This document shows positions 33,866-64,000 of a stretch of 64,000 nucleotides of DNA, piece by piece. The translations under genes were made by a program, and so were the position numbers. The DNA comes from Thiotrichaceae bacterium. GTDB taxonomy: Bacteria; Pseudomonadota; Gammaproteobacteria; Beggiatoales; Beggiatoaceae. The notes beneath the pieces are model-generated. The model did not search any database. It saw only the letters and a list, made by a program, of their open reading frames with translations, and was not told where the DNA came from. Each line of letters opens with the position of its first letter. Within the stretch, counting starts at the first letter, position 1. The stretch spans positions 1 to 64,000 of the forward strand of contig JAABRD010000029.1 of assembly GCA_011391085.1 (NCBI GenBank), written 5' to 3'.

Positions 33866-33970
33866 GGAGAATGGAAAATACCAGGCCGGACTGGAGGCTT
33901 TAGCCGGAAATCGTGGCACGTCACCGGCTAAAGCCTCTAGTCCGGCCTGGTGTTTTTCATTCTCCATTAT
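33866..33970. repeat. Family I hairpin (AGGCTTTAGCCGG type)
   Basis: ATGGAGAATGGAAAATACCA and GGCCGGACTGGAGGCTTTAG arms mirrored by CTAAAGCCTCTAGTCCGGCC and CATTCTCCAT; a stem of more than 40 bp. Confidence 0.8.
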
Positions 33971-36106: not shown

Positions 36107-36600
36107 CGTTGGAGGTCTCGAATTCTCGTGCCGCTAAGACCTCGGAGGTCTCGAATTATAGTCATATTCATTCAAATTTGTACGATTTAAGTCAAAAAAT
36201 GCCGTTGGACTAGAGGCTTTAGCCGGCCGGCGGTAGGCATTCCCCTTTCTCAAAGATTGGAGTGTGCCTACCGCCGGCCGGCTAAAGCCTCAATGCCATT
36301 AAGTTAAGGTGGAGTGGAGGCTTTAGCCGGCCGGCAGTAGGCATCACCCCCTACTAAAATTGCGGGGCACCTACCGCCGGCCGGCTAAAGCCTCCACTCC
36401 ACCGTACCTTAACTTAATGGCATTGCGGCTAAAGCCTCCAGTCCAACGTACCTTAACTTAATGGCATTGCGGCTAAAGCCTCCAGTCCAACGTACCTTAA
36501 CTTAATGGCATTACGGCTGAAGCCTCTAGTCCCGCAGTTTCTCCTATCTTTAAGCCTTCTTACATTACGACATATTATTCATCATTCATTATTCATTAAA
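36107..36600. repeat. Compound array of family I hairpins and 57-bp tandem units
   Basis: After a GGAGGTCTCGAATT duplication and a half G element (36160-36190), two large hairpins with CTTTAGCCGGCCGGCGGTAG arms (36210-36290 and 36310-36400) are followed by three head-to-tail units of about 57 bp (GGCATTGCGGCTAAAGCCTC, CAGTCCAACGTACCTTAACT). No gene. Confidence 0.85.
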
Positions 36601-50111: not shown

Positions 50112-50554
50112 TGCCTGCTTAGGAGTTACGCAAAATAGTTTTTCTAAATCGTTTAGGTAAGCTAAATGACGTATTTATCAAATTATTATCGTGACTCATT
50201 TGACGCACCTAAACTGAAATAACACGTTGGAGAAACTGAAATAATACATTGGAGTAACTGAAATAACACGTTGGAGTAGAGGCTTTAGCCGGTAGGTATG
50301 CCCCAATATTTAATATGGTTTACCCACCGGCTAAAGCCTCTACTCCAACGTTATGTCCCCCACCGGCTAAAGCCTCTACTCCAACGTTATGCCCAAAATA
50401 TCGGTGTTACGTTCCAAAATATGGACTCAGGGCAATTACCATAGAAGAAATGGTGTTGCACACGTGGTAAAGAATATTCTAAAATAAATAGTTAGAAAGT
50501 TTGATGACAATAACCATACTTACATTCGTTTGATTCACACAAGAGGAAACTTAC
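50112..50554. other. Repeat-filled gap upstream of a secreted-protein gene
   Basis: Contains a family F-like hairpin (50140-50170), three tandem copies of AACTGAAATAACACGTTGGA (50214-50278), and a family I hairpin (50275-50385, AGAGGCTTTAGCCGG/CCGGCTAAAGCCTCT) whose right arm is duplicated. The last about 150 bases are AT-rich and probably hold the promoter. No gene. Confidence 0.7.
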
Positions 50555-54824: not shown

Positions 54825-56567
54825 ATGAAAACCTTGTGCTTAAAAGTCGCAACGTTGACCGTTGCAATTGGTTTGGCAATCACTTCGCCGGTTCAAGCCG
54901 GTGTTGGAGATGGAATGATTGGCTTTTGGTCATTCAATGATAACCCACCCCCGGCCCTTCCTACCATCGCGGATCCCTTCGCAGATAAGTCGGGGAAGGG
55001 GAACAACGGCATAGCCACAGAGGTGGACCGTTGGGAAATGGGTGTTGGGATGGGAGGATGGTGGGGCTGGCTGGATTGGTGGCAAGCCAAACGTAGTTTG
55101 GTGGCTAATTTCAACGGCGCTAGCAGTGTTGTCGTTGTGAATGAAAATCCCACCTTAGCTAGTTCTATCGCATTGCGGTTAAACTCGGGTTCTTTTACGG
55201 TGGCCGCGTGGGTTAACTTGGGATGGCAACCTACAAATGGTGAACATCCTATCGTTACCAAACCAGGCTGGCGTCTGTCAGAAATGACGACCACTCGCAC
55301 CGAGTTGTATGATTACGATGGTGATGGTGTCGAAGACCATGAGGATGTTGATAAAGATTGGATGCTGGACACGGAAGACCTGAATTATAACGGTATGCTT
55401 GACCCAGCAGAGGACAAGAATAACAATAGTATGCTGGACACGGAAGACCAGAATGGGAATGGGTGGCTTGACTCAGGGGAAGACCTCAATGGCAATGGGC
55501 TACTTGATTTTGAAGATGTGAATTACAATGGTACACTTGACCTTGCGGAGGATAAAGATGGCGACAACGTGATTGACACGGAGGATGCGAATGGCAATGG
55601 ATGGATGGATGAGGATTATTGGTACACCTGGATAGAGGCCACCGCAAAATTTTGCAGTGGGACAACGTGTGTCGAAGGTGGAGTGCCTCTTTCAGGGGGG
55701 GACGAGTGGCACCATCTGATGGTTGCTTACGACAGTGTCAAGAAGATGGTAACTCTTTACGTGGATAGTAGTCCAACAGGCACCCTCACTCCATTTCCCT
55801 CGCCTGCGCCTACAGCAGGAGGGTTGTTGGTAGGTAAAGATGGAGTGGCCAATCAGTTCCTTGCAGGCCAGTTAGACGACGTGCGGATTTATAACCGGGT
55901 CTTGACGGCTGATGAAATGCGGGAACTGGCTAAAGGGTGTAAACCTGCGATTTACGATCCTAAGACTGGAAAACTCTCTATTCCATGCGTAGCAGATGCG
56001 ACGTATTATCCACCTGTCATTTACAAGGTGGAAATGCAACAAGCGGTTTCTCCAGGTGGCGACATGCTTCTTCCATCTCTTGACGACCTCAGTTTTGGAA
56101 TAAGTACCGCGATTCCACCCAAACTTGCTATAGCCACTCCTACCAATCCGGAACCGGCTTGGGGTGCGGGTGTGGTGGGCTACTATGTGAATGACTGGTA
56201 TGGCAACAATGTCTATCAGAAGGGAGATGATACCATTTTCCTCAGTGGCTTCCTGTCTTTTCCCATGGTGGCAGTGCTTAACCCCATTGCGGCGCCAAAA
56301 ACTCAATGTTATGGGGTTCGTCTGGACCAGGTATTCTATACCAACCGTTTTTTCTTGACGCAACCATGGAATGTTTGGTATAATGGTCCCGATTGTGAAA
56401 AGGCCCAGATCGGACCAGAACAAGGGCAACAGGGGGCACAAGGAATACAAGGTGCGGCAAGTGCTGGGGAAGGTCAACAACCAGCCCGGGACTATCAAAT
56501 TCCTAAACCGACAGGTGTGCGGAGTAAGGAGAATGTGACCCACTTTGAAGACCTCTTCGCAAACTAG
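54825..56567 (+). CDS. Secreted LamG-like protein with Ca-binding acidic repeats
   Basis: 580 residues. GAGGGAGA precedes the ATG. Signal peptide MKTLCLKVATLTVAIGLAIT...VQA, then a LamG/concanavalin-like domain (about 30-310: IGFWSFND, RLNSGSFTVAAWVNLGW, WHHLMVAYDSVKKMVTLYVD, LDDVRIYNRVLT). Inserted into it (about 165-265) is a run of DxDxDGxxDxxD/E repeats (DYDGDGVEDHEDVDKD, DLNYNGMLDPAEDKNN, DANGNGWMDED), like thrombospondin type 3 or EF-hand loops. A C-terminal GPEQGQQGAQGIQGA stretch is collagen-like. Probable surface adhesin. Confidence 0.75.
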   Translation: MKTLCLKVATLTVAIGLAITSPVQAGVGDGMIGFWSFNDNPPPALPTIADPFADKSGKGNNGIATEVDRWEMGVGMGGWWGWLDWWQAKRSLVANFNGASSVVVVNENPTLASSIALRLNSGSFTVAAWVNLGWQPTNGEHPIVTKPGWRLSEMTTTRTELYDYDGDGVEDHEDVDKDWMLDTEDLNYNGMLDPAEDKNNNSMLDTEDQNGNGWLDSGEDLNGNGLLDFEDVNYNGTLDLAEDKDGDNVIDTEDANGNGWMDEDYWYTWIEATAKFCSGTTCVEGGVPLSGGDEWHHLMVAYDSVKKMVTLYVDSSPTGTLTPFPSPAPTAGGLLVGKDGVANQFLAGQLDDVRIYNRVLTADEMRELAKGCKPAIYDPKTGKLSIPCVADATYYPPVIYKVEMQQAVSPGGDMLLPSLDDLSFGISTAIPPKLAIATPTNPEPAWGAGVVGYYVNDWYGNNVYQKGDDTIFLSGFLSFPMVAVLNPIAAPKTQCYGVRLDQVFYTNRFFLTQPWNVWYNGPDCEKAQIGPEQGQQGAQGIQGAASAGEGQQPARDYQIPKPTGVRSKENVTHFEDLFAN

Positions 56568-56635
56568 AGGTTAAACATTGAGTGGTAGTTTTCCAAACGT
56601 CTTCTTTTCAGGGAGACAGGAAGGCTATCCACTCA

Positions 56636-56742
56636 TCTCATTAAGAAACTCTGTTTCTCATTATCGGAAACTGAGTTTCTTCTTTCGTGGGAACCTGAGT
56701 TAAACCTGACAGGTCTCGAAGACCTGTCAGGTTTGAGGAGTG
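56636..56742. terminator. Two hairpins between convergent genes
   Basis: AAGAAACTCTGTTTCT/GGAAACTGAGTTTCTT (56646-56682) and a perfect 14-bp stem AAACCTGACAGGTC-loop-GACCTGTCAGGTTT (56702-56734). They would terminate transcription from both sides. Confidence 0.7.
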
Positions 56743-56784
56743 ATGGCCGCTATTATCACTACCCCACCTCTTATTACCCCATTC

Positions 56785-59520
56785 TCACCTCTCCCTAACA
56801 AACCACCGCCTCACCAATTCCACCTGAAACCGATAATAATGGTCATCCCTTTTTTCCAAAATTTCGCGTTTGATTAATCCCTGTAACGTCTCTTCGAAAG
56901 GGCTGGGAAACTGACGTTGTAACTCCTCCATACTCACCCCCGCCCCTTCTCCCCGCGCCGCTATCTGACGCAACACGTCTCGTCCATGGTCATCTGTTTG
57001 ATTTATTTCAATATCCGCAAAACAGAACCCACCATAACTTAACGCTTGCGGAATAATTTTGTCCACTTCCTCTATGGTGACGTGAAAACGTTGCCGGTCC
57101 CGTTGGGCATTCTTGAACTGTATCATTTGATGACACATCAACTGCACAAAGGCCGGATGACCACGAGTGAGAGAAAAGAGGTGGTACTTCGCTTCCTGCG
57201 AATAGTGCAAAGGAAACTCTTTGATGGGCTGTTCCATCAAGGTGTGGGCTTCGCGTTCAGATAAATAACTGATATGAACCACCGATACATTGATTAAATA
57301 AGTTGCCCACTGCGCGAGTTCTTCAAAGGTTTGAGTCCCCGAAAATAGCCACCGACACCGCGGGCGATGTTGCATCAAATGCCGAAACGTACCTAAAAGC
57401 GACGGACGATGTAAACGCTTCTCTAAAAAGGCTTCTTCAAGTACCATAAACTCATCTAACGCCAGCAAGAGGAGACGATTCCCGGCCAGTTTTTCCACCG
57501 CATCTAACCATTCCTCAAAATGACTGGCTGGCTGGTCTCGCCATTCGTCTTTCGAGAACGGCGGAAAGGTGAAATCGGGTTGTTCATTATTTTTGATAGT
57601 CCAAGCCAATCCGTAGAAAAAACTCACGTCGTCAGTGGCACTTGCCAGCGGTCCTTGACAATCGATAAAGAGTAAAATAAACGGTAAGTCAGCTAAAGAC
57701 CGCGGTAAATTTTTCAACAAGGAAGTCTTCCCGGTACGCCGTTGTCCATAAAGTAACAAAGGCGGAGAAGGTCGCGGTTGTAACAACTGGGCAATCTGCT
57801 TACTCAAGTCCGTCCGTCCCACAAACGTCTCATGTTGCGAATCTAGCGGCATTCCTACCAAGTAGGGATTGGGAATCTCCGGCAGTTCCTCTAGTAACTC
57901 ATTGGCATACTGGTCTAGCAACTGTTGCCAAGCCACCGCAATCGCCCCAAAGTATCGTTCTTCCTCGCTACGATTCTTCATTCCCGCTAACACACCTTGT
58001 AAAAAATTGGCTACATTTTTCAACGCTTGATGTTGTTGAAATGGGTGAGAATGAGAGATAGCAGTCTCGACTTGATGACTACAGTGACGCAAATGATGTA
58101 ACCAATCTCCTGTTACCCCTCTCAATTCATCGCCACCAATCAACATTTTACCATGCAGATTGGCGATGTCAAATATGGTACGACACTGAGTTAAACTACG
58201 TTTATCTAATTCTACTTGGGTCGCTAACACCGCCCACTTTTGAAAGCCGTCACGTAACTGTTTCATCACTGCCAAACCAGCTTGTGGCGACTCTTCAGAT
58301 AACCAAAGTAACTGGGTTTCCAATCCCCATAACGGCAATTGTTGACGCTTATCCCAAAACGCGGAATGTCGACGCAACCATTCTTCTCCCTGTTTGGGAT
58401 TCCGTTTCTGTCCCCACCAGAGAAATAAGTTCCAGGTGATTTCAAACGGATACATCAGTATCGACCACCACCATTTGAGTGTGAGTCCTGCGGTGACACA
58501 GAGGAGACCACCCATGAATAAATAACTGAGATCAGAGAGACCATGATAGAAAAATAATCCTAAATAACCTCCTAGACCACCTAATAAACCCGCGCTAAGA
58601 CTTGCCCAGAGACTGTTGCTAATATGGCGTGCTAATGAATAGGGTAAGGTAAATAAAGCCACCATGACTATTGCATTGGCGGTGCCTCCTGTGATTCCAA
58701 ACAAGATATATTGGATGACAGGGGTACGTATTTCAGGTAACAGATTTTGAGTTAAGCTAATCAAGAAGGCTATCAGACTGCCAAAAAATAAACCTAAGAC
58801 GAGTCCTAAGCGTAGGTCACGCAATCGAAAACCTAAGACCATTCCCATTGCCACGGCCATGGCCAAAATTTCTACACATTCTGCACAGATCTGAAGACCG
58901 GGCAAGAGTCGCAGGAGGAGGCGTCCAACGAGAATACCAATGGCTAAAACTAGCACCGTAATGATTTCTCCCACCATCACGCCGGCCCATTGCCAACGTA
59001 AGGGACGTGTTAGTGAAGTCGTCTGCCAGGGCAAGGTAGCGGTGATGTGACTGGTTAGGCCGAGAACAAATGCGGCGATAAAGAATGCTTCAATATTTTC
59101 CGTTGTGTCTGTCAATCCCATTAGCAGACCGATGCCCAAACCACCTAAGGTACCAGCCAGCATTCCGAAGGCGACGGAAATGGCTAAACTGCTAAGACTG
59201 CCTACCACCCAACAGATTAGGGTGCCATACGTGATGCCTAACCAGATTGAGGCGGAGGTTTTGCCACTGATCAGAAGTAGGAAGCCAATCAATATAGCTA
59301 TCCAGAGAGGTTGCACAAAGAAAATTAAGGTTTGTAACTGTAACCATTCTGGACGACGCCATTGGTCAGGTTGCAAATCGGCAAAGGCAAAGTGGGGTGG
59401 TAAATGGGGATCCACACGGGCGAGGTAGTCGGTCCATTGGGTGGGGTAGAGGAGGAGCCAAATGAATAGTTGGCCGGTAGCGATAAAGGGGTTGGCGGAG
59501 AGTTGGGGAGGGGAAGACAT
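56785..59520 (-). CDS. Membrane-anchored AAA+/STAND-like ATPase
   Basis: 911 residues. The first about 360 residues hold roughly ten hydrophobic segments (for example FIWLLLYP, IAILIGFLLLISG, LLGGLGGYLGLFF). A soluble linker (about 380-560) leads to an ORC/Cdc6-type ATPase: FVGRTDLSKQIAQLL, Walker A GQRRTGKTS (592-600), Walker B LLLLALDEFMVL (Asp 689, Glu 690), sensor LFSGTQTFEELA, then a winged-helix-like end (VLRQIAARGEGAGVSMEELQ). It lies downstream of a second AAA ATPase on the same strand. Role unknown; signalling or defence is possible. Confidence 0.75.
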   Translation of the reverse strand: MSSPPQLSANPFIATGQLFIWLLLYPTQWTDYLARVDPHLPPHFAFADLQPDQWRRPEWLQLQTLIFFVQPLWIAILIGFLLLISGKTSASIWLGITYGTLICWVVGSLSSLAISVAFGMLAGTLGGLGIGLLMGLTDTTENIEAFFIAAFVLGLTSHITATLPWQTTSLTRPLRWQWAGVMVGEIITVLVLAIGILVGRLLLRLLPGLQICAECVEILAMAVAMGMVLGFRLRDLRLGLVLGLFFGSLIAFLISLTQNLLPEIRTPVIQYILFGITGGTANAIVMVALFTLPYSLARHISNSLWASLSAGLLGGLGGYLGLFFYHGLSDLSYLFMGGLLCVTAGLTLKWWWSILMYPFEITWNLFLWWGQKRNPKQGEEWLRRHSAFWDKRQQLPLWGLETQLLWLSEESPQAGLAVMKQLRDGFQKWAVLATQVELDKRSLTQCRTIFDIANLHGKMLIGGDELRGVTGDWLHHLRHCSHQVETAISHSHPFQQHQALKNVANFLQGVLAGMKNRSEEERYFGAIAVAWQQLLDQYANELLEELPEIPNPYLVGMPLDSQHETFVGRTDLSKQIAQLLQPRPSPPLLLYGQRRTGKTSLLKNLPRSLADLPFILLFIDCQGPLASATDDVSFFYGLAWTIKNNEQPDFTFPPFSKDEWRDQPASHFEEWLDAVEKLAGNRLLLLALDEFMVLEEAFLEKRLHRPSLLGTFRHLMQHRPRCRWLFSGTQTFEELAQWATYLINVSVVHISYLSEREAHTLMEQPIKEFPLHYSQEAKYHLFSLTRGHPAFVQLMCHQMIQFKNAQRDRQRFHVTIEEVDKIIPQALSYGGFCFADIEINQTDDHGRDVLRQIAARGEGAGVSMEELQRQFPSPFEETLQGLIKREILEKRDDHYYRFQVELVRRWFVRER

Positions 59521-59579
59521 AAGGGAGTTGTTAAGTTTTCAAAGTTATTAAGAGGGTGCGGGACAAAAGGCTTTTTTCG

Positions 59580-59712
59580 GTGTTGGAGTGGAGGCTTTAG
59601 CCGGTGGCTTTGTTGGAGTGGAGGCTTTAGCCAGTCGGCGGTGGGCGTCCCCCCACTCTTGAGACACGGAGTCTGCCTACCGCCGGCCGGCTAAAGCCTC
59701 CACTCCACCGGA
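59580..59712. repeat. Family I hairpin between the two AAA genes
   Basis: TTGGAGTGGAGGCTTTAGCC twice, then a CGGCGGTGGGC/CTACCGCCGGCCGG arm pair and CTAAAGCCTCCACTCCACCG. Confidence 0.75.
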
Positions 59713-59736
59713 GTCTTAATTCCTTCATCACACTTC

Positions 59737-60816
59737 TCACCGTTTCAATAAATAGCCAAACGGTTCCACATTTTTCAACCCTACTTCTTTCCAAAAATCC
59801 CCCTCCGGGCAATTGATTCGTGCCTGACATAAAATCTGTAACAACACCGGCCAGCCTCGACTTGCCGTTATCATCCATTGCTGTTCTTCAAGCGTCAGAG
59901 GTATCGGCGAATGTTGAAAAAAATCACTCGCTTCGGCTTTGGTAAATGGATCTAACCAGAAGATATTGAAGATATTGAAAAACGGTGAAGAAGGATAGTC
60001 GCTTTGGATAATCCGAGTATCCTTGGCCGTCACCACAAATCGTAATTTGGCTGGTGTCTCTTGTGCTAAAGAACGTAGTTGGTGCCAAAATCGGGTATTA
60101 AATTCTGGGGCGTTGAGTCCTTTTTCAATATCATCGAGAAACACAACCGTGACTTTCTTTTGTTTTCGGAGAATATCATAAACCGAAAAGAGTAAGTCTG
60201 ATGCCTCCCAATTCTTTACCCAGTCTATCTGTTTTTCTTGACCAATTCCTTTCAATACCATTAGTAAAAAATCCGCAGGACCGCGTATTTTTCCCACTTC
60301 ACCCAATTTAATTAAGACCCGTTGAAAATGCGTGGGCAACCAACCCGCTGGCCAACCTGGATTCGGTTGGTTTTTCCGCAATTCGGTAGCGGGGGTATGA
60401 ACAATGGTATTTAGATAGTTTAACAAAGAGGTTTTACCAGTGCCACTGGGACCTAGAATGGCGACATTTTGTATCATTCTCTCGTTTTGCCAGGCGTTGT
60501 AAAGATGTTTGAGAACCGTTTCGCGTCCAAAAAATTGACAAGGGGAAGTCATCGAAATGCCTATGACAGGCAAGTATGGAGGACAGGGTGGTTTGGCTTC
60601 GCCATAGCCTGCGGCTCCGCTAAAACCTTTGGCCTCTTCTGGTGTCAATCTCAGAATGTCGATCATCTTTCTCACGTTTTCACAACTGGGGCGAGTCACA
60701 TTATTTCGCCAACGCCAAACTGTCATTCGGCCCACGTCAATTAATCTAGTCAGTTTGTTATCGGTCAAGAAAATTCTTTTCATGTAGGAGTCAAGCTGGT
60801 CACCGAAATTGTTCAT
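59737..60816 (-). CDS. HTH-AAA+ ATPase (ORC/STAND type)
   Basis: 359 residues. N-terminal XRE-like HTH (LTRLIDVGRMTVWRWRNNVT, about 22-41). ATPase: FFGRETVLKHLYNAW, Walker A GPSGTGKTS (122-130), Walker B VTVVFLDDIEKG (Asp 228-229), RFVVTAKDTRIIQ. A helical C-terminus follows (LTLEEQQWMITASRGWPVLL). GGAGGAAAT precedes the start. The region upstream carries TGTAAC boxes that could be its own operator. Function not assigned. Confidence 0.7.
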   Translation of the reverse strand: MNNFGDQLDSYMKRIFLTDNKLTRLIDVGRMTVWRWRNNVTRPSCENVRKMIDILRLTPEEAKGFSGAAGYGEAKPPCPPYLPVIGISMTSPCQFFGRETVLKHLYNAWQNERMIQNVAILGPSGTGKTSLLNYLNTIVHTPATELRKNQPNPGWPAGWLPTHFQRVLIKLGEVGKIRGPADFLLMVLKGIGQEKQIDWVKNWEASDLLFSVYDILRKQKKVTVVFLDDIEKGLNAPEFNTRFWHQLRSLAQETPAKLRFVVTAKDTRIIQSDYPSSPFFNIFNIFWLDPFTKAEASDFFQHSPIPLTLEEQQWMITASRGWPVLLQILCQARINCPEGDFWKEVGLKNVEPFGYLLKR

Positions 60817-60847
60817 ATTTCAATATTTCCTCCGTTTCTCAGTAAAT

Positions 60848-60898
60848 TGTAACACCTGTAACATCCTCCCCCACCTCCCTGTTACACCTCCTTGTAAC
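60848..60898. promoter_or_regulatory. Cluster of TGTAAC boxes
   Basis: TGTAAC at 60848-60853 and 60857-60862 (direct, 9-bp period), TGTTACA at 60880-60886 (inverse), TTGTAAC at 60892-60898. It lies 32-82 bases upstream of the HTH-AAA start and could be the operator bound by its HTH. Confidence 0.5.
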
Positions 60899-60956
60899 TA
60901 ACCGCGAGTCCTGCTTTTTTGAAAACGCCCCCTATATAAGGGACTTGGTTCATTTT

Positions 60957-61013
60957 AAAGACAGTAGAGTTTGACTTATCTGATAAATCTATTATCAGGG
61001 TGCCTCTGTCTTT
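60957..61013. promoter_or_regulatory. Nested dyad upstream of the small winged-helix gene
   Basis: Outer arms AAAGACAG (60957-60964) and CTGTCTTT (61006-61013), inner arms CTGATAA (60980-60986) and TTATCAG (60992-60998), 71-127 bases 5' of the ATG at 61084. Could be an operator or a structured leader. Confidence 0.5.
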
Positions 61014-61083
61014 AATCAAGATGACTAACAGAATTTTTTAAAAAAACCACCGAGTTTTCCAATTTGAGTAGGAGATTATTGCT

Positions 61084-61338
61084 ATGAATACGTCAACCAC
61101 ATGTTCCTCTAAAACATTTCAGGCTACCGGCGTGATTTATCAAACGTTGGAACAGTTGTCGAATAACACTCACGCGGTCTTCGTCAGTTACAACGAACTA
61201 GCTAAACGCAGCGGTTATTCCCGTACCTGTGTGATTTCTGCGGTGAAGCGACTGATTTTGCAACATCGTATCTTTAAGCAAAGCGAGTGCGATGTGGAGA
61301 AAGGGTATCTCCGTAATTTCTATGTGCTGGCGGCTTAA
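61084..61338 (+). CDS. Small winged-helix DNA-binding protein
   Basis: 84 residues. GVIYQTLEQLSNNTHAVFVS, YNELAKRSGYSRTCVISAVK and RLILQHRIFKQSE form a GntR/replication-initiator-like winged helix, then a beta wing (GYLRNFYVLAA). TAGGAGATT precedes the ATG. Divergent from the HTH-AAA gene across a control region with two sets of dyads, so it may regulate that gene or be regulated with it. Only DNA binding is supported. Confidence 0.65.
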   Translation: MNTSTTCSSKTFQATGVIYQTLEQLSNNTHAVFVSYNELAKRSGYSRTCVISAVKRLILQHRIFKQSECDVEKGYLRNFYVLAA

Positions 61339-61349
61339 TAGAGTGGATT

Positions 61350-61412
61350 TCCAGGAGTCCAAAACGTAGCTTTGAGAAAAATGGGTTCAAAGCTACGCTT
61401 TGGACCTCTGTT
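61350..61412. terminator. Family E hairpin between convergent genes
   Basis: CCAGGAGTCCAAAACGTAGC and CAAAGCTACGCTTTGGACCT arms between the 61338 stop and the 61442 stop. Confidence 0.6.
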
Positions 61413-61441
61413 TGAGATATTTGGGACGTTTGGGATGTTTC

Positions 61442-61720
61442 CTATTTTTTGGGAGGCGCCGCATTGATAAATTTAGGTAACGCTTTGTCAAGATAAGCTT
61501 TAATATCCGTGAGGGCGTCTTGAGTGGCCTTATTCAAAATCTTTTGAAATCGTTTCTCAATAATCTCTTCAAGTTGTTGTTGGAGGATGTTCATTTGAAC
61601 GTCACTCAGCAGTATGGAAGAGGTGGATTTAACAGGGAGGGCCTTGCCTGGCACAACGATGTCTTTTAAGACGGGGACCTCAAATTTTTTAGCTGGTGGT
61701 TTAGATTTTTCAGTCGTCAT
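61442..61720 (-). CDS. Hypothetical coiled-coil protein downstream of holC
   Basis: 92 residues: a basic, Pro-rich N-terminus (MTTEKSKPPAKKFEVPVLKD), then amphipathic helices VQMNILQQQLEEIIEKRFQK and ALTDIKAYLDKALPKFI. It lies 41 bases after holC in the pepA-holC direction and may be co-transcribed. In many gammaproteobacteria a short gene of unknown function follows holC before valS; no clear homology is seen. Confidence 0.55.
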   Translation of the reverse strand: MTTEKSKPPAKKFEVPVLKDIVVPGKALPVKSTSSILLSDVQMNILQQQLEEIIEKRFQKILNKATQDALTDIKAYLDKALPKFINAAPPKK

Positions 61721-61761
61721 GATGTTCTCTGTGTTCTTCCTTACCCGTTTGAACTTGACGC

Positions 61762-62202
61762 TTAACGGGAAATGTCGTGGGTTTTTAGTTCAAAACCATG
61801 GTCTCTATAAAAACTGTAACGTTGTCGTCCCGCTTGACGGGCGATGGGGGTGTCCATAACAATTTCTGCGATGCGTTGAAATTGATGCACAACAGATTCG
61901 GGTACGGTGTCCGTGAGGTTGATTAACACGGGGAGATTGGGACAGACTTGTTGGGGGTCATAACCAATCCGGATGGGGGCGATTGAGGATGGTTCATCTG
62001 GGTAAAGGTCATGGGGTAAAAACCGTTCCGTTTGAAAGGTCCAAAGAAAATCATCTAGTCGTTTCGCTTGCACGATAGACATAGTATGAATATAAATCTG
62101 GTAACCTTGATGCCAAACTTTGTCGGCGAGTTGACAGGCAAAACGGTCTCGGTCAGTATTGATTTGGGTGTGATGAAGGATATAAAAGTTAACTTGGGGC
62201 AT
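61762..62202 (-). CDS. holC: DNA polymerase III subunit chi
   Basis: 146 residues. MPQVNFYILHHTQINTDRDR, ACQLADKVWHQGYQIYIHTM, LDDFLWTFQTERFLPHDLYP, PVLINLTDTVPE and FQRIAEIVMDTPIARQAGRQ RYSFYRDHGFEL are chi-subunit signatures. Chi binds SSB and links the clamp loader to DNA. pepA followed by holC is the usual gammaproteobacterial order, here separated by a palindromic insertion. Confidence 0.95.
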   Translation of the reverse strand: MPQVNFYILHHTQINTDRDRFACQLADKVWHQGYQIYIHTMSIVQAKRLDDFLWTFQTERFLPHDLYPDEPSSIAPIRIGYDPQQVCPNLPVLINLTDTVPESVVHQFQRIAEIVMDTPIARQAGRQRYSFYRDHGFELKTHDISR

Positions 62203-62228
62203 GGTGTTTTAAAAAAAGTCATCTTTTG

Positions 62229-62400
62229 CCGGGAGTCCAAAGCGTGGCTTTGTCCGTAACCTGGCATAGTAGTATTCCTATAAATTTGTACGATTCCCTC
62301 TGGAACGCAATAAAAATTATTGCGCCATGGTTCACAATCCCATTCGCAATAATTCTTATTGCGTTCCAGAGGGAATGGTATCGTTGTTACAGGTATTTTA
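62229..62400. repeat. Half family E motif plus family G/B element between pepA and holC
   Basis: GGAGTCCAAAGCGTGGCTTT (62231-62250), then ATAGTAGTATTCCT, TTTGTACGATTCCCTCTGGA and GCAATAA arms mirrored by TTATTGCGTTCCAGAGGGAA (to about 62375). Same construction as 26927-27069. Confidence 0.8.
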
Positions 62401-62402
62401 CA

Positions 62403-64000
62403 TTACCTTTGGCCAGGGTAGGAGGATTCATTTTCTTCTTCTCTCTCTCTCTCTTCTTCTCTGTCTTCTTCTCTCTCTTCGATTCTCTCTTCTACTTCTT
62501 CCTCTTGTCTTTCGTCATCTGACGTTTCAAAAGAAGAAGAGGCTTCCATAGAGGTGGCGGTTGGTGAAGAAGCAGGCGCGGTTGCCATGACCGTTTGATC
62601 ACGACTGCGGTCAATCAGATATTGGGTCAATAAGGGCACAGGGCGGCCCGTGGCACCCTTTTCTTTACCTGTCAAGTAAGCGGTGGCAGCAATATCTAAA
62701 TGGGCCCAGTGGAATTTTTTGGCAAAGCGAGAGAGGAAGCAGGCACCTTGGATGGCACCAGCGTCACGGTCAGGTCCCACGTTGGCCATATCGGCAAAAC
62801 GACTATCCAATTGTTCTTGGTAGTCATCCCATAAAGGTAATTCCCACGCCCGGTCACCGCTTTGACGACCAGCGTTGAGGAGATCATTAGTTAATGGATT
62901 ATGGTTACTCATCAAACCATGGGCATGTTTGCCCAACGCAATTTGACATGCCCCTGTGAGGGTGGCAACATCAATCACCACGTCAGGTTTATAACGTTCT
63001 GCATACGTGAGGGCATCGGCCAAAATCAGACGGCCTTCGGCGTCGGTGTTGAGAATCTCTACCGTTTGCCCAGACAGAGAGATGATAATATCCCCTGGTT
63101 TCGTCGCTTTCCCACTGGGGAGGTTTTCGACCGCAGGAATGATGACGACAATGTTCAGTGGCAGTTGGAGTTCCACCGCGGCAGATAGGGTGCCAAGTAC
63201 GGCGGCGGCCCCGGCCATGTCAAATTTCATTTCGTCCATGTCTTTGGCAGCTTTGATGGAAATGCCACCAGCGTCGAAGGTGACACCTTTGCCAATGAGG
63301 ACGATAGGGTTGTCATGTTTGCGTCCAGCGCGGTATTCTAGGGTGATGAGACGGGGAGGTTGTTCACTCCCTTTGGCAACGGCAAGAATGGTATTGAAGC
63401 CTTGTTTTTCCAGATGACTTTCATTGAGAACTTTACACGTCAGTTTTTCATGGAGGTTGCACAAAGCTTTGGCTTGGTCAGCTAAATACGAAGGGGTGCA
63501 AATATTCCCTGGCAAGTTCGCCAAATCTTTGGCCAATTTGATACCTGTGGTAATTGCTTGCGCTTCACGACTGGCTTGTTCAGCCATCGGCAGTTCACGC
63601 CGGGAGGCGACGCTAAAGACGATTTTGCGTAAGGGGCGGCGGGCGATGTCTTTTTTACTTTTGAGTTGGTCAAAAGAATATAGAGTAGCTTGGGCCGTTT
63701 CAATGGCTTGCCGAATGCGCCAGGCCGTGTCACGGCCACGCACATTGACTTCGGTGAGATAGCAAACCGCCTCCATGGACCCTGTGTCATGGAGAGTACG
63801 AATGGCTTGCGAAATCACTTTGCGATATTGGCTATCGCCCAGATCGCGTTCGCGTCCGCAACCGACTAGCAGAACACGGTCTGCAAGGGTGCCTGGGACA
63901 TTGTGCAACAAGAGAGTTTGACCAACCTTGCCTTCGATGTCGCCGCGGCGTAAAATAGTAGAAAGATAACCTTGACCAATTTCGTCAATTTGGCGGGCCA
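62403..64000 (-). CDS. pepA: Leucyl aminopeptidase (PepA), 5' end cut by window; acidic C-terminal extension
   Basis: The frame is open to the right edge (first complete codons read ARQIDEIGQGYLSTILRRGD), so the N-terminus is outside. M17 motifs: VLIGKGVTFDAGGISIK (Lys and Asp metal ligands), MKFDMAGAAAVLGT, NTDAEGRLILADAL (signature with Asp and Glu), LTGACQIALG and HLDIAATAY. The enzyme domain ends near LLTQYLIDRS; about 60 further residues follow, with a Glu/Arg-rich run (ERQEEEVEERIEEREEDREE), not typical of PepA. Confidence 0.93.
   Translation of the reverse strand, partial: ARQIDEIGQGYLSTILRRGDIEGKVGQTLLLHNVPGTLADRVLLVGCGRERDLGDSQYRKVISQAIRTLHDTGSMEAVCYLTEVNVRGRDTAWRIRQAIETAQATLYSFDQLKSKKDIARRPLRKIVFSVASRRELPMAEQASREAQAITTGIKLAKDLANLPGNICTPSYLADQAKALCNLHEKLTCKVLNESHLEKQGFNTILAVAKGSEQPPRLITLEYRAGRKHDNPIVLIGKGVTFDAGGISIKAAKDMDEMKFDMAGAAAVLGTLSAAVELQLPLNIVVIIPAVENLPSGKATKPGDIIISLSGQTVEILNTDAEGRLILADALTYAERYKPDVVIDVATLTGACQIALGKHAHGLMSNHNPLTNDLLNAGRQSGDRAWELPLWDDYQEQLDSRFADMANVGPDRDAGAIQGACFLSRFAKKFHWAHLDIAATAYLTGKEKGATGRPVPLLTQYLIDRSRDQTVMATAPASSPTATSMEASSSFETSDDERQEEEVEERIEEREEDREEEREREEENESSYPGQR

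Follow-up and report, generated by a model that had tools for sequence, protein, structure and literature searches.

A conserved gene pair for predicted membrane-anchored and DNA-binding STAND-type ATPases in Beggiatoaceae, cyanobacteria and Chloroflexi

Genes at the locus

Two genes for AAA-type ATPases of the STAND class stand in tandem on one strand of contig JAABRD010000029.1 from a Thiotrichaceae bacterium (family Beggiatoaceae, assembly GCA_011391085.1, genome of 5.77 Mb), of which we analyzed the first 64,000 nucleotides (hereafter the window). The upstream gene, H, encodes a helix-turn-helix (HTH) protein with an AAA domain, the downstream gene, M, a membrane protein with an AAA domain, and a third gene, W, for a small winged-helix protein, is divergent from H (Table 1). 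H and M form a conserved gene pair, adjacent to each other in three phyla, whereas W does not belong to it. A first-pass annotation, made from the letters of the window, had read the three open reading frames (ORFs) as an HTH-AAA, a membrane AAA and a winged-helix protein; they are present at the coordinates it gave, and all three readings agree with the domain predictions, in the case of W with a match to Pfam HTH_36 (E 1.5e-6).

The H protein is predicted to consist of a Cro/C1-like HTH (residues ~4-68) and an Orc1/Cdc6-like AAA domain (~85-357). Its structural model, with a mean local confidence (pLDDT) of 86.1 and a global one (pTM) of 0.73, shows five N-terminal helices of the kind that make up an HTH domain, followed by this AAA domain, the predicted fold of which aligns with 2qby_A over 242 residues (Z 19.1, root-mean-square deviation 3.6). 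The Walker A motif is GPSGTGKTS, and the Walker B motif is LDD in the window protein and LDE in most of its relatives. Five solved relatives were detected by sequence, all weak (best E 1.5e-5), and residues 3-59 weakly match DicA (18.1 bits, with the NCBIfam cut-off at 101).

The M protein is predicted to begin with membrane helices (eight hydropathy segments before residue 291, where the AlphaFold2 model, with mean pLDDT 89.7 and pTM 0.63, shows long helices) and to continue with a helical linker (~375-544), an AAA domain of STAND type (~550-830) and a winged helix (~840-909). Walker A (GQRRTGKTS) is at residues 592-600 and Walker B (LDE) at 688-690. The predicted fold of the C-terminal unit is closest to the archaeal ATPase 2qen (Z 24.2, root-mean-square deviation 3.7, 323 residues aligned), with CED-4 and plant NLR proteins ranking lower (Z ~18-20). 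No solved relative of M was found by sequence, Pfam recognised no effector domain, and the Pfam family ATPase_2 scored 21.9 bits, under its cut-off of 33.2. As expected of AAA+/STAND proteins, H and M each combine Walker A and Walker B motifs with a predicted AAA fold. The two ATPase domains are homologous to each other (hhalign probability 99.1).

Table 1. Positions of the genes and sequence features around H, M and W in the window
Feature	Position	Strand	Source
M, 911-amino-acid membrane STAND/AAA protein	56785..59520	-	ORF list, Pfam, hydropathy, predicted fold
H, 359-amino-acid HTH-AAA protein	59737..60816	-	ORF list, Pfam, predicted fold
W, 84-amino-acid winged-helix protein (HTH_36)	61084..61338	+	ORF list, Pfam
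Dispersed palindromic repeat, inside the 216-bp H/M gap	59589..59702		repeat scan
Intergenic control region separating H from W	60817..61083		genome search for copies
Four TGTAAC/GTTACA boxes	60848..60898		motif counts
Nested dyad, 10-nt outer arms, 7-nt inner arms CTGATAA/TTATCAG	60955..61015		dyad search

Conservation and co-divergence of the pair

The distribution of H and M was examined at an E-value of 1e-5 in 42 Beggiatoaceae genomes and in one genome from each of 53 other families of the class. The family comprises 25 genera in the genome set used, which equals the count for Beggiatoaceae in the abstract of PMC11172852. Relatives of H were found in 39 and those of M in 40 of the 42 Beggiatoaceae genomes, and neither protein in any of the 53 other families. 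Some of these matches are partial, covering only the AAA half of M (G006 and G008) or only the head of H (G035 and G036). In an even sample of the phylum, an M profile at E 1e-30 matched at least 3 of 396 genomes besides that of the window, in its C-terminal part only. A search with H at E 1e-60 gave at least 9 of 291 genomes in Cyanobacteria and at least 3 of 301 in Chloroflexota, both counts including the centre genome; all these counts may be low, because few first-look candidates were scored per genome (mostly two in the M search, mostly six in the H searches). H and M were matched in none of 72,556 plasmid records and M in none of 50,697 phage records, and the explanations of the pair as plasmid cargo, and of M as phage cargo, were therefore rejected. 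The window genome has further H genes on contigs C22 and C68 (the latter without an HTH), M genes on C92 and C118 and a gene of the c0 family described below on C114, all in separate places (loci L095, L096, L097, L098 and G000:C114:117-824).

A scan of named genomes gave 334 relatives of M, of which the best 80 supplied the M loci used here. These belong to Beggiatoaceae, with close relatives in records named Parabeggiatoa, Thioploca, Thiomargarita and Marithrix, to other Thiotrichales and gammaproteobacterial records, to Chloroflexi (largely Anaerolineae) and to cyanobacteria, among them Nostoc, Oscillatoria, Tychonema, Calothrix and one Acaryochloris. Most of these cyanobacterial genera, Acaryochloris apart, are filamentous. 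Transfer of genes between distant lineages of filamentous gliding bacteria, as argued for in PMC6390638, would suit the spread of the pair. Of the 65 M loci where the contig leaves room, 51 have H on the same strand at most 3.5 kb upstream, and the two genes are neighbours in Beggiatoaceae, in some cyanobacteria and in some Chloroflexi. Two tandem H-type genes precede M in L076, L094, L106 and L113.

The adjacent genes have also diverged together. Removal of copies identical over M residues 101-400 reduced 77 adjacent pairs to 67, for which the H and M distances are strongly correlated (r 0.92), as they are within Beggiatoaceae (0.96), Chloroflexi (0.96) and Cyanobacteria (0.78); none of 2000 shuffles reached these values, whether overall or within any group. 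Since relatedness of the species alone could yield such a correlation, we also relabelled the 13 pairs of five genomes having more than one pair each, swapping labels within a genome only, and two of 1152 relabellings, the true one included, were as good as the true one. The divergence of H and M is thus matched paralogue by paralogue. Both trees contain a slowly evolving core clade of 16 Beggiatoaceae pairs, drawn from three named records and 13 of the numbered genomes of the family; the other pairs of the family are fast variants, three of them lying outside the main Beggiatoaceae group in the H tree. The window pair is one of the fast variants and falls near Parabeggiatoa and a few other pairs of the family (L075, L116, L076, L077, L078) in both trees; finer placement is unsure because of the long branches.

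The ATPase domain of H has been kept, while its predicted DNA-binding head has been exchanged between Cro/C1-type HTH, winged HTH and SARP/BTAD modules in different groups. Pfam assigned heads of Cro/C1 or related type to several of 33 H relatives (HTH_26 in two, HTH_31 in three, HTH_3 in one) and a winged HTH (HTH_24) to five, and all five tested Chloroflexi H proteins longer than 520 amino acids have a SARP-type module with BTAD (E 4.6e-22 to 1.3e-18). The part of H before the AAA domain measures 70 residues or more in 58 of the 67 pairs, and two more pairs are cut by contig ends.

The gene divergent from H often encodes an apparently secreted or surface-related protein. Among the 30 Beggiatoaceae pairs with room, 16 have c0 in this position, a protein mostly of ~230-250 amino acids with an apparent signal peptide (called by eye) and three residues invariant in 15 sequences, which is present in 39 of the 42 Beggiatoaceae genomes. 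Similarly, 10 of 15 Chloroflexi pairs with room have a divergent relative of the L148 cluster, in which three of five proteins contain TadE/TadG-like domains. No common theme was found among the cyanobacterial H neighbours scanned. Twenty stretches fetched for further c0-like domains gave a c0 match in 18, and in six of them a CHAT protein as well (L216, L217, L222, L224, L230 and L234).

In the window, W occupies the divergent place usual for c0. The first-pass annotation had made its reading depend on conserved linkage of all three genes; H and M bear this out, and W departs from it. Relatives of W occur in 10 of the 95 genomes, that of the window counted, and none of the 12 loci in other genomes (L063-L074, 1.8-3.2 kb each) has H, M or c0 beside W. 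As W shows no linkage to the pair in the loci seen, the three-gene set finds no support, and W is a private neighbour outside the conserved pair. Its one close paralogue in the window genome (78% identity) lies beside a PD-(D/E)XK transposase-like gene.

A possible route from membrane to promoter

Several known systems share features with the pair. Regulators of the AfsR/SARP and MalT types join a DNA-binding domain to a STAND nucleoside triphosphatase (NTPase). H has the same combination, the AfsR model matches 5 of the 33 H relatives, and five Chloroflexi H proteins carry BTAD; unlike these regulators, however, the predicted model of the window H closes with the AAA lid (residue 357), neither the model nor Pfam showing a C-terminal TPR-like sensor, and its membrane STAND partner is supplied by a second gene. 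The AAA and winged-helix domains of M cover 323 of the 350 residues of 2qen, which, like 2fna, is placed in Pfam ATPase_2 and the MNS clade. This likeness to archaeal STAND-like ATPases is one of predicted fold alone, and M differs from them by the added membrane domain and linker and by scoring below the ATPase_2 cut-off. The AAA domain of H resembles in predicted fold that of archaeal Orc1/Cdc6, but lacks the C-terminal winged helix after the lid; with a score of 22.3 bits against a cut-off of 181.3 for this nearest replication model, a replication initiator was rejected, in line with the earlier view of the locus as regulatory or defensive rather than replicative.

Two adjacent genes, each with a STAND-type NTPase, are also found in the two-gene nSTAND2 operon, in which, according to PMC8195603, one NTPase is eroded and GT4 or HEPN effectors are carried. 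In contrast, both H and M retain their Walker motifs and have no GT4 or HEPN match in Pfam. The Pfam nSTAND2 family matches one of the 33 H relatives, the window H not being among them. No MoxR or vWA domain, encoded by adjacent genes in the VMAP/iSTAND ternary systems, was found by Pfam in the five window proteins scanned (54825-61720). A catalogued anti-phage system (PADLOC-DB 2.0.0) was likewise rejected, as the matches were weak and of P-loop type only: the best for H had E 5.1e-4, and among 42 M proteins PDC-S27 matched three (best E 1.2e-4) and PDC-S01 two. Nor does any NCBIfam defence family fit, so that the first-pass statement that no known system fits exactly still holds.

We give an even chance to the reading of H and M as a two-protein STAND pair signalling from membrane to DNA, of which the window holds a fast-evolving paralogue. 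M would be a membrane-anchored STAND NTPase that answers a cue located at the membrane or within it. Through its cytoplasmic NTPase domain it would engage the homologous domain of H, whose N-terminal DNA-binding head would then switch transcription, often of the gene divergent from H, which encodes a secreted or cell-surface protein. The cue, the physical contact of H with M and the target promoters are what we infer; the data show the conserved adjacency, the matching divergence and the homology of the ATPase domains, and predict the membrane modules and the exchangeable DNA-binding ones. In the window paralogue, the divergent place would be taken by the private gene W. A STAND regulator is usually one protein, with a soluble inducer as its ligand. 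If the reading is correct, a system split into a membrane half and a DNA-binding half would constitute a simple ATP-driven route from envelope to promoter, unlike two-component systems. Relatives of H and M are present in nearly all sampled Beggiatoaceae genomes, and the pair offers defined genes that can be tested in cultivable Beggiatoa, Nostoc or Oscillatoria.

Only tentatively, and at less than even odds, do we extend this to a hetero-complex of membrane and DNA-binding STAND NTPases with homologous motors and swappable heads, carrying an envelope signal to a promoter in three phyla, mostly in filamentous bacteria, and of a kind that we did not find described in the literature searched. 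Among the matches listed by that search, from which subscription journals were mostly absent, no title or opening of an abstract described the H-M pair.

Several observations weigh against signalling to a promoter. Of the 65 M loci with room, 14 lack an H neighbour, the upstream regions of H homologues revealed no shared operator, and the link to c0 is limited to the Beggiatoaceae pairs counted above, with the window pair not among them. In seven of the 67 pairs, four of them in the slow core clade, the stretch of H ahead of the AAA domain is shorter than 70 residues in a closed frame; in one case (L093) the threshold is missed by two residues only. In 11 of the 42 family genomes there is a head-less copy of H, as judged from matches that start at residue 81-84 in open frames of at most 318 amino acids; four of these genomes are the core short-head cases or their counterparts, and one is the window's own (the C68 gene). 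H, M and c0 are still together without a head in L084, L086, L087 and L136, and in L086 c0 and H overlap, leaving no operator. The strongest argument that transcription is not the sole output comes from the head-less H copies, four of which lie in core H-M-c0 loci. Moreover, the caspase or CHAT genes near some pairs suit defence or cell death as well. In Marithrix (L086 10636-12245, and L136) there is no room in H for a DNA-binding head.

Defence or regulated cell death is the first of the alternatives to signalling, and an unlikely one. Here H and M would assemble into an apoptosome-like STAND complex, with M as the membrane-acting effector and H as sensor or regulator. This agrees with the likeness of the AAA-winged-helix half of M to STAND proteins including CED-4 and plant NLRs, with H and M paralogues that are numerous and fast-evolving in some genomes, and with CHAT or caspase genes near H or M in L077, L078, L096, L109, L111, L184 and L173; the spread of the pair also resembles that of conflict systems of multicellular bacteria, as described in PMC7159879 and PMC8195603. 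However, no PADLOC family fits, plasmid records lack H and M and phage records lack M, the core clade evolves slowly, and M has no effector domain recognised by Pfam. The explanation retains some probability, given the fast variants and the neighbouring genes for CHAT and caspase proteins. One such gene, for a protein with a caspase domain, lies between c0 and M in Marithrix sp. Canyon 246 (L173 8080-10011).

Ranking next, and also unlikely, is a membrane-associated machine, for example for surface-protein assembly, a pilus or gliding, in which the head of H would only autoregulate the operon. Both the frequent divergent neighbours, apparently secreted c0 or the TadE/G-like cluster, and the head-less H copies, including those still together with M and c0, speak for such a machine. 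It is at odds with the head-length N-terminus in 58 of 67 pairs, and the Chloroflexi head is a SARP activator domain, seemingly beyond the needs of autoregulation. That H, M and W are neighbours by chance, with no functional link, is very improbable. In its favour, the loci seen show no linkage of W, a dispersed repeat separates H from M in the window, and no listed H or M lies near holC in 24 other Beggiatoaceae genomes (see below). Against it, the adjacency of H and M is conserved and their divergence is cognate; chance may account for W alone.

Control region, repeats and flanking genes

The boxes and the dyad noted by the first-pass annotation in the control region are present, but are not supported as a shared control element; they are private to this locus and only moderately above chance. 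Nowhere else in the window does the TGTAAC/GTTACA hexamer occur four times within 51 bp; 25 of 2034 hexamer classes form such a cluster somewhere in the window, and some hexamer occurs four times in 51 bp in 14 of 300 shuffles of the control region. The perfect 10-nt arms of the dyad are matched by 8 of 300 shuffles. Its RNA fold has a z-score of -3.4, or -1.0 with wider flanks, and it could form a hairpin in the W leader. Boxes and dyad are thus modestly above shuffled sequence. The genome contains no second copy of the control region. Upstream regions of 300 bases were compared for 88 H homologues, with some loci entering twice, and 77 of them lack a TGTAAC box. As an operator common to H genes the boxes were rejected, although three are present upstream of H in each of two relatives, L078 and L104.

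The repeat between H and M belongs to a dispersed palindromic intergenic family with the core TGGAGGCTTTAGCC. With one mismatch allowed, this core forms 73 clusters in 555 kb, only three of them wholly inside ORFs of at least 150 amino acids. The copy between H and M folds strongly as single-stranded DNA (z -8.0), and the repeat also occurs at 33892-33939, 36211-36484 and 50277-50378. A test of repeats in the flanks of M (four of five, against 104 of 607 other flanks) was devised after the data had been seen, and we draw no conclusion from it.

The site of the window pair appears to be a private one: holC, which lies beyond W, has a match in 24 other Beggiatoaceae genomes, and among the matches listed no H or M is found by coordinates within 80 kb of it. 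On the other side, beside M, a LamG-domain protein with a secreted-looking N-terminus is encoded at 54825-56567. At 61442-63911, a gene for a 92-amino-acid protein, holC and pepA form a block that is kept in part in relatives, the 92-amino-acid protein in 6 and pepA in 5 of 11 short holC loci, which helps to locate the edge of the variable region.

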